In this document: positions 3,116 to 23,545 of the stretch, piece after piece
Layout of the letters: every line of letters starts with the position of its first letter
How positions within the stretch are numbered: position 1 is the stretch's first letter
Virus record (IMG/VR): IMGVR_UViG_3300031507_000027
Location: 1-23,632 of that record
Source: a virus
DNA length: 23,632 bases
Direction: 5' to 3' (one strand)
Translations under genes and position numbers: made by a program
The notes under the pieces: generated by a model
What the model was told of the DNA's origin: nothing
Databases searched by the model: none
Seen by the model: the letters and a program-made list of their open reading frames with translations, nothing else

Positions 3116-4816
3116 TTAGTTCACCGCCTCTGGCGCAAGTTGCTTAGCGGCAATAAACGCTGTCAATGAGTAAAGTCTAGCAGGACCATCGGTAATATTG
3201 CCAGCGGTAATTAGGTCGACCCTGAATTGCACGACCCTGAACCTAAGACTTTTACCGAATCTGATGAATCTACGTGCGAGGCCTGCGCTTTGTGGCTGCT
3301 GAATAACAAGATCAGGAATCGTGAACAATGGGTAACCCCACGTGTTCAACTGATGCCATTGATAAGCGTGAAGCTGTGCCCATGTGACCCGATAGGCAAT
3401 TGTAAATGGAAACAAAGTTCCGGTTACATCTCGACCTGTGATGCAGTCAATTCCCCAGTGCATCAATCTTTTGAACCGATGACTCAAGCCGACGTCGTAA
3501 GCTTTTGTAGTCATGGAGCAATTGATATCTACGAAGTTTGGCGTCAGTTGACCATTTTCTTCGATGACATCTTCGTAGCGATCCTGCATGATATAAAGTT
3601 TCAGGTACGCTTTCCAGGCACCGGACGAACCAAAGCCAGCCGAGTCAGTGACTTTTCCAAGAGCGCTCGCAGCAATGTAGGATTCATATCCCCGATTGAG
3701 GTCCGTATTTGTGTTGTCGAGTCGGATCGCGCGCCCAATGTATTGAATGGACTCGTCATTACTCTCATAGCGCGTCCAGGCCCGAAGTCGTAGGTGGTAG
3801 ATATAAAGACGGTTGAAGAACCGGCAATATAGCCTATCTCCAACAAGTGAGAGACTTTGGGCGAACTTCCACCATTCATCAACAGTTGACGTCAACCCTT
3901 CAAAAGGTGTCGTGTGATCGTATTCAAATGGAACTTTCACCGAGACCCGAGTGAAAGTGTAGTTCGTCATTTCGTAGACTTCATCGTACTGAAGCAAAAA
4001 GATGGAGTTCTCGTAAGCTACGACACAATTGCGGCCCATAACTCCAATTGTTGTACTGACGGGCTGCAAAACCGCTTGAGCTGGACCCTGGTCATAACTT
4101 AGGACGTAAGTTTTATTGTCCTTGAAAATGACTAGATTGTCTTGATAAACGGCGAGATCATTGACGGCATCGCCGTCCCCAACATTGATGTCGAAAAAGG
4201 AAGATGACTGAAACGTTCCGAAAGTAGCCAGGTCTGAAAACCAGAGCCTAGAACTATCGGTGATGTTTCGTCGACCAGAAATCCATAGACGGTCTTTATA
4301 AACTGTTGCAGCGTAGCCCCTTGGCATGTTTGGCAGGGCTGTGACAAGACCGGAGTTGAGTGCGTAACTTTGTCCAGTGCCCAATGACGCGGTTCCACCT
4401 TCTGGGCCGGGGCAAAGGTAGATGGTATCTGAGTAGCGAATTGCGGCTTGATAGGTACCGTCTGCAATCTTTTGGATGGTGCCGTCATTGACCCCGCCGA
4501 GAAAGTAAATCCAAGCTGCAAAAGCGCCTGTGTGACAGCTGTTGAAAATGATGAATTGAACGCCCTGGTATACAAAGCTTCCAAGTAGGAGTTGGTCACT
4601 TTCAGGTGGGAGGGTACCTGTGACTTCTGTTCGTGAAATTCCATAGAGCAAGGTCCAAGGAGGTCGACTTTTGAGGCTGCCATCAAGATCGATGTCAAAG
4701 TTGACACAGTCCGTCATTTCATTGTCAGCGATCGCTGAAATGTCCGAGTAGGTGTTAACGCCCCCAGAATAGGGGCCAATTTTGAGCTCCTGGACTGCGC
4801 TTTTGGAATCAGCCAC
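3116..4816 (-). CDS. Tail hub/DNA-stabilisation beta-propeller protein (P22 gp10-like), 566 aa
   Basis: The GTG start at 4816-4814 overlaps the adaptor gene by 8 bases (GTGGCTGA). The N-terminal segment 10-60 has the pattern YSGGVNTYSDISAIADNEM, then VNFDIDLDGSLKSRPPW, which is typical of phage proteins that line the tail hub. Residues 165-245 hold repeated beta strands: YKDRLWISG, RLWFSDLATFG, FFDINVGDGDAVNDLAVYQD and NLVIFKDNKTYVLSYD. This 'device-in-use' strand pattern is found in P22 gp10-like packaged-DNA stabilisation or tail accessory factors, which fold as beta-propellers and plug the portal-adaptor channel. It follows the adaptor gene, as in P22. The fold is inferred from the pattern; propeller blades were not modelled. 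Confidence 0.75.
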   Translation of the reverse strand: MADSKSAVQELKIGPYSGGVNTYSDISAIADNEMTDCVNFDIDLDGSLKSRPPWTLLYGISRTEVTGTLPPESDQLLLGSFVYQGVQFIIFNSCHTGAFAAWIYFLGGVNDGTIQKIADGTYQAAIRYSDTIYLCPGPEGGTASLGTGQSYALNSGLVTALPNMPRGYAATVYKDRLWISGRRNITDSSRLWFSDLATFGTFQSSSFFDINVGDGDAVNDLAVYQDNLVIFKDNKTYVLSYDQGPAQAVLQPVSTTIGVMGRNCVVAYENSIFLLQYDEVYEMTNYTFTRVSVKVPFEYDHTTPFEGLTSTVDEWWKFAQSLSLVGDRLYCRFFNRLYIYHLRLRAWTRYESNDESIQYIGRAIRLDNTNTDLNRGYESYIAASALGKVTDSAGFGSSGAWKAYLKLYIMQDRYEDVIEENGQLTPNFVDINCSMTTKAYDVGLSHRFKRLMHWGIDCITGRDVTGTLFPFTIAYRVTWAQLHAYQWHQLNTWGYPLFTIPDLVIQQPQSAGLARRFIRFGKSLRFRVVQFRVDLITAGNITDGPARLYSLTAFIAAKQLAPEAVN

Positions 4817-14393: not shown

Positions 14394-14420
14394 ATACCTC
14401 CTTCTTCAATTTGTTCGAAA

Positions 14421-14580
14421 ACTTTAAACTCGCAACATTTTGCGGGGGTCCCTCGCTACATGCCCTAGCCTGGCTCAACCGCGACCTCCCCTTCCCTCCT
14501 GCGTCGGTCAGTTGAGCCCACGGCAGAGTCAGCCTATTGCATTTCGCCCCCCGCAAAACAGCGAGTTCAAACTTTTCTCA
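14421..14580 (-). ncRNA. Large structured element before TerL (leader RNA, small RNA or packaging site)
   Basis: This is non-coding sequence between the tail-protein gene and TerL. A long-range stem pairs TTTTGCGGGGG (14438-14448) with CCCCCGCAAAA (14548-14558), 11 bp perfect, stacked on AACTCGC (14427-14433) with GCGAGTT (14561-14567), 7 bp perfect, and extended further outwards by A/T pairs. Inside, GGCTCAAC (14472-14479) pairs with GTTGAGCC (14511-14518), 8 bp perfect. The apical loop is homopurine on the RNA strand (AGGAGGGAAGGGGAGG, 14500-14485), could form a two-layer G-quadruplex and looks like a Shine-Dalgarno decoy. The ribosome site of TerL lies about 20 bases after the outer stem. 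What it does is unknown: TerL translation control, a phage small RNA, or the pac/cos site are the options. Confidence 0.6.
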
Positions 14581-14582
14581 CA

Positions 14583-15887
14583 CTAGACATCCCAGAAGAT
14601 GTTACTTCCAGCAGCGTAAGCTACACCTGCGAGATGAATTCGATTAAAATCAGCACTTCCACCGAAGCAGCGCATTGTAGTATCTGCGACACCATCATTT
14701 GGAATAAACACCCGAGCACCCTGATAGCCCTGCAAACTCGTTGCCACGGAACTGACGGCCAAAGTCTCATGACCTAGCATGAAAGTTCCCGCAACGCGAG
14801 GTCTGATACCAATTGGTGGGGGACCAAACAATCCGTAAGAAACTCCCCGAGACATATTGCCAGCCGTGAAGCCAATGATTCCACGCCAGTAAACTCGTCC
14901 ACGATTGTCGAGGGCAATTTGGAACGGATTCGCTGGGGTTGGATTCAAAGTCCAACCAGTAATCTTCATGACAGTTGTTGGGATTGTCAGCCATGGGGAA
15001 ATAGCATCTTGGATAGGTCGCCAATGCCAACCCCAAGCTGCATCTTTCACAACTAGGATGTAGATTGATTTAGTGTCGGTCTTATAGAATCTGTCACCAA
15101 CGTTGAATGGTCCACTTTGTGGAAGAGTGGTTCCTGAAAGTGGAGCCGGAGCTCTGGAAATCTTCTCCCAGTTGTAGTTGATCCATGTCTCATAGTCTGA
15201 CATGAAATCAACTGACGTCGGTTCGTTAAGTTGATACTGGGGAGTCTGGGTGGCTCCACCCCCAATGTAATTGGCTACACTAGAGATAGCTTTGACATAC
15301 TTGTAGAAAGTGTCAGTACGTAGACCGGTTTCCCGATTCGCTCGGGTGAGACTAGCGCCAGTAAAAAAAGACGCTCTCAAAGTGTTGGACAATTCTAGCT
15401 GAACACCGGCGCTCTGCCTAGTTTTGTTGGTAATGTTGGCCAGACTGCTACCGTTAAGTTCAGCTGTACCAACCGATGCCGTGAAACCTGCACCCTGCAA
15501 AGCGAGAATGACGGCGTCCCTGTTTGCTGTATCAAGTCCACCAACATAAGTTTCAGCCACGCCAGCGCTTTGGTCGGCCATGCCGTGAAAGCTGAAACAA
15601 TAGTCCATTCCTGCGACGAGTTTAGTCCCTAGTGGCTCGTCATAGTTTGTGGACGTGATATGCAGGTCAGAGTTGCTGGAAGATTTAATACCTTCGAGGG
15701 AGTAATAGTTATGCCGACACGATGCAGCAACGCCTAGTGCAACTTCAGAACTTCCGGGTTCAATCGATCCACCGTGAATTGCTATAGATGCAACTTGTGA
15801 CCGGTTATATTTAATCGGCAGTCGATAATCGACATTCGCAACCTCGGCAGCGGCAAGTGCAGCCCAGTTTGGAAATAGGTCAGCCAT
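14583..15887 (-). CDS. Tail protein with poly-gamma-glutamate hydrolase domain, 434 aa
   Basis: Residues 30-210 match the poly-gamma-glutamate hydrolase family (PF05908): AIHGGSIEPGSSEVALGVAA (36-55), YYSLEGIK (61-68), LHITSTNYDEP (75-85), FSFHGM (98-103), VGGLD (115-119), and GVQLELSNTLR (161-171). These include the expected metal-site histidine and acidic residues (H38, E43/E48, H76, H101). The family cleaves poly-gamma-glutamate capsules. Residues 225-434 are a separate beta-rich C-terminal part (for example SGPFNVGDRFYKTDTKSIYI, then the repeated NRGRVYWRGIIGF), likely receptor binding or trimerisation. ATG follows the previous stop directly (TAAATG). Sitting after two minor tail proteins and next to the endolysin, it probably acts at the tail tip as a depolymerase during adsorption. 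A free lytic enzyme is less likely but possible. Confidence 0.8.
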   Translation of the reverse strand: MADLFPNWAALAAAEVANVDYRLPIKYNRSQVASIAIHGGSIEPGSSEVALGVAASCRHNYYSLEGIKSSSNSDLHITSTNYDEPLGTKLVAGMDYCFSFHGMADQSAGVAETYVGGLDTANRDAVILALQGAGFTASVGTAELNGSSLANITNKTRQSAGVQLELSNTLRASFFTGASLTRANRETGLRTDTFYKYVKAISSVANYIGGGATQTPQYQLNEPTSVDFMSDYETWINYNWEKISRAPAPLSGTTLPQSGPFNVGDRFYKTDTKSIYILVVKDAAWGWHWRPIQDAISPWLTIPTTVMKITGWTLNPTPANPFQIALDNRGRVYWRGIIGFTAGNMSRGVSYGLFGPPPIGIRPRVAGTFMLGHETLAVSSVATSLQGYQGARVFIPNDGVADTTMRCFGGSADFNRIHLAGVAYAAGSNIFWDV

Positions 15888-22042: not shown

Positions 22043-22065
22043 TCTCGTCCGAGTGAAGTGAGGGA

Positions 22066-22093
22066 AACCCGGGAATTTCCCGGGTTTTCTTTT
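22066..22093 (+). terminator. Strong intrinsic terminator of the first early unit
   Basis: AACCCGGGA (22066-22074) pairs perfectly with TCCCGGGTT (22078-22086) around a three-base loop, followed by TTTTCTTTT. It closes the four-gene unit that starts at the promoter at 20992. Confidence 0.85.
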
Positions 22094-22387
22094 GAGGCGG
22101 GCTGGAATTGCGAGTGGACTTTTGGACATCGCCCAGGAACGCCGTAATGTTGTCCATGTCGCCGCAACGCATTGCAGTGGGTTTGAGTCCCATGGATGCG
22201 TAGCCACAAAGTCGCCAACTTTGTGCCGAGTGATTGTGACCCGTCAACTTTGACGGTTTGAGAATTCAATAGTGGACGCGTGTCACATGACGTCACCTTT
22301 AGGTGATCCTTGTGTGGCTATCTTGACAAATTGTGTCTAAGCACCCGCTTAGGCGCAGCAAACATCAGGTTCGGTCACAGGAGAACC
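22094..22387 (+). other. Intergenic spacer with a hairpin array
   Basis: No gene with a usable ribosome site is seen in these roughly 300 bases. The left part (22094-22200) shows nothing clear, apart from a T-arm-like GTGGG-TTTGAGT-CCCAT that is not part of a tRNA. The right part holds four perfect small hairpins (22205-22352) and a TTGACA at 22324-22329 without a good -10 box 16-18 bases later. Confidence 0.5.
22205..22352. repeat. Array of four small perfect hairpins
   Basis: CACAAAGT-CGCCA-ACTTTGTG (22205-22225), CCGTCA-ACTT-TGACGG (22241-22256), TCACCT-TT-AGGTGA (22293-22306) and CTAAGC-ACCC-GCTTAG (22337-22352) are four unrelated perfect palindromes with short loops, spaced about 15-40 bases. 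The palindrome TGACGTCA (22288-22295) overlaps the third. None has a T run, so they are not terminators. Candidate roles are a replication origin, protein sites or a structured leader. Confidence 0.6.
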
Positions 22388-22456
22388 ATGCGCTTACTCA
22401 AAGTTAGCGTGTTGGTTGACTGCTTCTGTGACTGTTCCTGCTACTTGCTGTGCTAG
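22388..22456 (+). CDS. Possible Cys-rich leader peptide, 22 aa
   Basis: ATG with AGGAG four bases upstream. It reads MRLLKVSVLVD and then CFCDCSCYLLC, so five of the last eleven residues are cysteine. Its stop TAG (22454-22456) is the first part of the -10 box TAGAAT of the next gene, so it ends where the downstream promoter begins. Cys-rich peptides ahead of genes can act in cysteine-responsive attenuation in mycobacteria. That would need a transcript starting further upstream, which is not shown. Confidence 0.4.
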   Translation: MRLLKVSVLVDCFCDCSCYLLC

Positions 22457-23493: not shown

Positions 23494-23516
23494 AACTTCA
23501 CCACACAGACAATCAA

Positions 23517-23545
23517 CCCTCGGCCAAATTGGTCGGGGGTTTTTT
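23517..23545 (+). terminator. Intrinsic terminator after the 22507 gene
   Basis: CCCTCGGCC (23517-23525) pairs with GGTCGGGGG (23531-23539), nine pairs with two G-U, around AAATT, followed by six T. Confidence 0.85.

Follow-up and report, generated by a model that had tools for sequence, protein, structure and literature searches.

A long imperfect hairpin, here called the rod, lies directly before the terminase gene TerL in a 23.6-kb phage fragment from IMG/VR (hereafter the window, meaning the whole stretch analyzed), and it is a genuine folded RNA under selection that was previously unlisted. Related phages carry it in two copies, one in each of two divergent operons. At a rough probability of 40%, the rods are regarded as cis-acting elements with a nut/put-like effect on the transcribing polymerase; the structure was established by folding and covariation, and the function is argued from arrangement and analogy.

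Location and Fold of Copy 1

The late genes of the window phage are located on the − strand, and copy 1 fills the gap that runs from the stop codon of a tail gene to the Shine-Dalgarno (SD) sequence of TerL, which itself lies outside the rod (Table 1). PHROG 4175, matched by the N-terminus of the tail-fibre-like product, is a poly-gamma-glutamate hydrolase, and the homologue of this gene in the Streptomyces contig G048 is much shorter (225 aa vs 434). Stop-codon readthrough was rejected, the window frame closing ∼17 codons past the stop. No tRNA or tmRNA gene was found when ARAGORN was run on the window.

Table 1. Rod copy 1, its parts and the adjoining genes in the window.
Feature	Position	Strand	Basis or remark
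Upstream gene, 434 aa, tail-fibre-like	14583..15887	−	N-terminal match to PHROG 4175; stop codon directly before rod
Rod copy 1, whole element, 167 nt, single imperfect hairpin of ∼58 bp	14413..14579	− (14579→14413)	Folds, homologues, covariation, covariance model
P1 5' arm, GAAAA.UUUGAACUCGC	14561..14577	−	Pairs with 14417-14433; helix 1, 85% of cells paired
P2 5' arm, GUUUUGCGGGGG (relatives: UUUGACG.GGG)	14548..14559	−	Several compensated pairs, e.g., columns 28/154, 29/153, 32/150
Apex GA-C-GCA-G-GA: tandem GA, closing pair, GNA triloop	14497..14505	−	GA/GA and GNA pattern, 16/20 copies
One-sided 3' bulge GAGGGA beside 2-bp GC clamp	14449..14454	−	Near-invariant columns in copy 1 alignment; duplex drawings
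P2 3' arm, CCCCCGCAAAAU	14437..14448	−	Duplex drawing and alignment
P1 3' arm, GCGAGUUUAAA.UUUUC	14417..14433	−	Duplex drawing and alignment
TerL, downstream gene, 511 aa	12858..14393	−	SD GAAGGAGG; TTG start 19 nt past rod

When copy 1 and its flanks were folded in the sense of the − strand, a minimum free energy of −97.1 kcal/mol was obtained (z −6.6), against −67.1 ± 4.6 for shuffled sequences, none of which (0/200) was as good; the + strand of the region folded less well (−69.1, z −4.7). As none of the 587 windows scanned over the 23.6-kb fragment folded more strongly than copy 1 (5.1 s.d. below the mean), the earlier note was right that nothing else in the late block compares with it. The perfect 11-bp arms TTTTGCGGGGG/CCCCCGCAAAA and 7-bp arms AACTCGC/GCGAGTT that it described are present in the sequence, and they correspond to P2 and to part of P1, respectively. 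The inner 8-bp stem GGCTCAAC/GTTGAGCC that it also proposed was not favoured: the window and locus L055 lost ∼10 and 21 kcal/mol, respectively, when this stem was imposed, and besides these two, L007 was the only one in which it could be drawn. The 16-base homopurine run was likewise found as described, but it does not form the apical loop; it is the paired 3' side of a ladder of tandem G·A and G·U pairs. With the purine run paired and the inner stem disfavoured, the suggestion that a G-run loop mimics a Shine-Dalgarno sequence was rejected. The true apex of copy 1 is a GCA triloop (14502-14500), which is closed by a C-G pair and flanked by GA/GA. Between the GC clamp and the apex, short helices are separated by small symmetric purine loops, and the register common to the rod family is CUC.GCCGUGG/CCGCGGU.GAG. 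According to the drawings, the rods contain duplex segments of 11–20 bp, and the ladder of purine loops interrupts the duplex.

Relatives and Covariation of Copy 1

A search with TerL yielded 79 IMG/VR loci, whose region before TerL was then folded. The rod was found before TerL in L001, L002/L003, L004, L005/L006/L027, L007, L008, L009, L012, L055 and L060. The related sequences are few (12 phages): eleven phages besides the window carry the rod before TerL, L055 being the nearest rod relative of the window, and compensatory changes occur along its full length. An alignment of eleven copies 1 was made with MAFFT and scored on a 62-pair structure, the middle of which is less certain than the outer half. 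As shown by this count, 93 cells were changed on both sides of a pair, compared with 37 ± 5 in shuffled alignments and at most 38 when the partner was slid. In the test of paired base changes suggested earlier, changed pairs were mostly compensated.

A covariance model (R1), the E-values of which are rough, was built from copy 1 alone and scored copy 1 of the window at 153.7 bits. Over 84 sources, only known rods were matched, the sole other matches being weaker antisense ones of the same places. A further copy 1, outside the training set, was found by R1 in the Streptomyces contig G048 (E 4e-32). Against the 4227 families of Rfam 15, no match reached the gathering score, and permissive searching gave chance matches only (E above 1). 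No match was obtained when the rod was compared by blastn with 50,697 phage records. DNA pattern scans of IMG/VR added a single contig, L090, which was a chance match, and a scan for the apex returned mostly unrelated contigs that were rejected by R1. No described equivalent of the rod was found in the literature searched.

A Second Copy before the Helicase Gene

When R1 was applied to whole records, a diverged copy 2 was detected on the opposite strand, ∼13–15 kb away, in G001, G002, G004, G011, G027 and G044. It is also present in G007 and in the Streptomyces contig G048, and hence in 8/8 relatives searched beyond TerL, none of whose copies 2 was in the training set of R1. The window is a fragment, and its counterpart of copy 2, if any, would lie beyond the fragment end. 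Copy 2 belongs to the divergent early arm, where the gene of an SNF2-type helicase follows it either directly or past one or two small ORFs. The helicase has 689–709 aa and belongs to the SNF2 family (Pfam SNF2-rel_dom and Helicase_C; PHROG 62). Five copies 2, aligned separately from copy 1, gave 39 doubly changed cells vs 15 ± 3 in shuffled alignments; in the outer 13-bp helix, 98.5% of cells were paired and 9/13 pairs were doubly changed. A fold scan of selected genomes ranked the two rods above every other fold in the whole 45–47-kb genomes G044, G048 and G001. In G048, the late rod is ∼5 kb and the early rod ∼9.5 kb downstream of the divergent point.

The presence of two copies on opposite strands argues against a unique pac/cos site, a phi29-type packaging RNA and a leader specific to TerL, the first and third of which were readings offered in the earlier note. 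A unique pac/cos site was rejected because each near-complete genome holds two copies on opposite strands, the second being ∼13–15 kb off and in front of the helicase gene. The TerL-specific leader is contradicted by the same helicase-linked copy and by the small ORFs that separate rod and TerL in some genomes. The phi29 pRNA was brought into the comparison by the place of the rod near TerL, and it is likewise structured, phage-encoded and ∼170 nt long. However, it is branched and serves the packaging motor in one copy, whereas the R1 model has 0 branch points, the rods lie in two copies inside two operons, and Rfam gave no match. An intrinsic terminator (short GC stem with a direct U tract) was also rejected, since the terminator scan, which did call a canonical one at 23515-23541, passed over the rod.

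A signal at the DNA level, that is, a single-strand priming or origin hairpin or a packaging site with one copy per strand, was considered very unlikely. The copies do lie on opposite strands, DNA parameters likewise give folded rods, and both GNA triloops and tandem GA keep their stability in DNA. Nevertheless, every copy stands in operon sense between a stop codon and an SD sequence, two copies are unlike a unique pac/cos site, and G·U outnumbers A·C in well-paired columns (43 vs 19, which is weak against composition). A mobile palindrome was not favoured either, given that the rods always keep their place and orientation and that their spread tracks the TerL tree.

Features Common to All Copies

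Across the copies, the rod length ranges from 139 to 177 nt. In 20/20 copies, the stop codon of the upstream gene ends no more than 6 nt from the first base of the rod, and the operon-sense strand gives a more stable fold than the opposite strand. The apex GA-[1–2 bp]-GNA-[1–2 bp]-GA was found in 16/20 (chance ∼0.01 per 50-nt centre), and the remaining four (L004, L008, L012 and copy 2 of G007) still have a GNA triloop on a closed helix. Most copies also have UUUGAC/GUCAAA and, with a U·U at its centre, GGCUGG/CCUGCC. The helix sequences turn over while the GA/GNA/GA apex, a bulge of the AGGGA type and the U·U and G·A mismatches are kept. Where the start is clear, the next SD and start codon mostly lie 4–24 nt behind the rod, and in several copies (G002, G005, G027, G044 and G001) a small unrelated ORF comes first. 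Extra small ORFs, some of them zinc-ribbon-like, were seen exactly between the rod and TerL or the helicase (L002, L005; L156 5441-5695).

It is possible, though doubtful, that the rods are RNA processing or stabilizing sites, a reading placed second after an effect on polymerase. Cutting of the rod (e.g., by RNase III) or a block to exonucleases would then divide the message of each arm in two, so that the upstream portion gains a protected 3' end and the portion with the downstream core module gains a defined 5' end. REP-type stabilizers and T7 RNase III signals are found mid-operon, directly behind stop codons. All 20 copies are so placed, long duplex segments of 11–20 bp are available, and the position is independent of the identity of the downstream gene; the distance from the divergent point is neutral for this explanation. 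The rods resemble these signals as irregular intergenic hairpins by stop codons in polycistronic phage messages, but the known signals are shorter or simpler, whereas the rods are more than twice as long and have conserved apex and bulge sequences. A processing site would need little conservation of apex or internal loops, yet here it is GA/GNA/GA and the AGGGA-type bulge that are kept while the helices turn over, and the purine-loop ladder breaks the duplex.

Translational control of TerL and the helicase, by folding or by a rod-bound protein, would agree with the short distance to the next SD and start and with both downstream products being large ATPases. It is quite unlikely, considering that a small unrelated ORF comes first in the five genomes named above, that the SD of the window is outside the rod, and that the paired purine run offers no free SD mimic.

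Distribution among Phages and Hosts

In a tree of 50 TerLs, the rod bearers fall on one side of a branch with support of 100/98, and a single change is needed. Relatives of TerL lacking the stem, raised earlier as a counter-case, were looked for: none was found inside the clade, while sister phages with TerL 64–70% identical and the same gene order around it do lack the rod. In four sister genomes, R1 gave no match and no window folded more than 4.1 s.d. below the mean. In Arthrobacter Jasmine-type phages, Cellulosimicrobium DS1 and Microbacterium Shocker, TerL overlaps or abuts the preceding gene, so that no gap for a rod exists; R1 found nothing in Casserole, DS1 and Shocker. A different, very stable long hairpin (TTGTCAAGGG/CCCTTGACA) was observed directly before TerL in L063 (∼3347-3475), where TerL is more distant and R1 gave no match.

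The rod bearer G048 is a 46,429-bp contig in the assembly of Streptomyces griseosporeus JCM 4766, and it encodes a WhiB protein, an actinobacterial hallmark. A TerL search of 393 genomes of the genus Streptomyces returned only this contig. The rod bearers are regarded as a clade of actinobacterial phages, probably of Streptomyces, and such a host is probable for the window phage itself by kinship only. Also noted were genes without an assigned function that most or all rod bearers have and that were found in 0/4 sisters: G048:C11 (L183 3975-4835 and 5061-5729; L182 11001-11582 and 13634-13966). These genes are candidates for a protein partner of the rods.

With a common apex, two copies per genome, a very stable compact fold and one gain in the clade, the rods could also be excised as trans-acting small RNAs or decoys that soak up a host protein such as a defence or RNA-turnover factor. 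This is unlikely, as the 0–6 nt before the rod hold no promoter or terminator of its own and fixation at the same two operon junctions is unneeded for a trans-acting RNA. The interpretation in the earlier note is borne out in part: the element is a structured and apparently unreported phage RNA, with strong covariation in each copy separately and no Rfam match. 6S RNA is similarly rod-like and similar in length; the rod differs in having no large central open bubble, in being embedded in operons, and in having no Rfam match.

Leaders of the First Early Gene

A non-coding leader before the first early gene, 22043-22450 (+), ranks second in strength among the folds of the window (−75.9 at 22281). 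Leaders of 400–600 nt precede the homologous early gene in G001, G002, G004, G027, G044 and G048. These leaders have common hairpins (GTCACCTTTAGGTGA, CTAAGC..GCTTAG and CTTGACAAG), most of them have a stretch resembling a tRNA T-arm (GTGGGTTCGAGTCCCAT), and the leader is possibly another structured RNA. Directly behind the first early gene lies a strong canonical intrinsic terminator (12 bp followed by TTTTT; window 23515-23541, +), with a similar one at the same place in G044. It exemplifies the termination signals of these phages, and the rods are unlike it.

Discussion

The rods would form a new cis-acting structured RNA family in two divergent polycistronic messages. Each 139–177-nt rod fills a gap that is free of ribosomes, from one stop codon to the SD that follows, and its irregular purine features may be recognized on the nascent transcript by a host or phage factor or by RNA polymerase itself, and this recognition would change the fate of the downstream core module. 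The likeliest action would be of the nut/put/EAR kind, with the elongating polymerase kept going across the long module that follows the rod. Action in cis is deduced from position and sense, which are kept while neighbouring small ORFs change, and recognition through the apex and the purine mismatches from their being kept while helix sequences turn over. The small ORFs between the rod and the downstream gene indicate that the position in the message matters and not one target gene. The occurrence of one copy before the packaging genes and another before the replication helicase suggests a switch or marker within both long phage messages.

An effect on polymerase was placed first because putL/putR and nutL/nutR likewise come as two copies, one in each arm. 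The lambda sites nutL and nutR lie as two copies in divergent operons, and nutR follows the stop codon of cro. The rods share this divergent two-copy arrangement with the boxA/boxB sites of lambda, but no boxA-like sequence was seen by eye beside them, no N-like protein was identified, and their apex, a GNA triloop capping a long rod, is unlike a 15-nt boxB. The putL and putR sites of HK022 are two related RNAs, one per divergent operon, whose action extends over at least 10 kb to distant terminators; put RNA has ∼70 nt and two stem-loops, and the sites lie at or within ∼270 nt of promoters (PMC9378689). Like put, the rods are two related structured RNAs, one per divergent operon, in untranslated transcript and with non-canonical purine pairs. 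HK022 put binds the beta' zinc-binding domain and suppresses termination, whereas the effect of the rod on polymerase is putative.

The antitermination reading is weakened chiefly by the distance of the rods from the divergent point (∼5 and ∼9.5 kb), kilobases into the arms, since put sites are near promoters (0–270 nt); local promoters closer to the rods are possible. It is further weakened by the rod being one unbranched hairpin instead of two stem-loops within ∼70 nt, and by the fully syntenic sister phages, which live without it. Scans for consensus promoters and terminators gave no excess near the rods of the kind that antitermination would need. The specific proposal of a new phage RNA class that reprograms actinobacterial RNA polymerase (processive antitermination or pause suppression) via a GA-GNA-GA rod is offered tentatively.

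Comparative proof of a structured RNA in the operons of tailed phages is known in few cases. The rod adds a case in which covariation is strong, two paralogous copies occupy fixed junctions, and the clade is clearly set off from syntenic rod-less phages. Its conserved apex and bulge are parts to target by mutation, and phages with and without the rod provide a natural comparison for the handling of long messages in actinobacteria, for which the literature searched yielded no phage antitermination RNA. If the rods do reprogram polymerase, they would be the counterpart of nut/put in Streptomyces phages, with an unrelated architecture.
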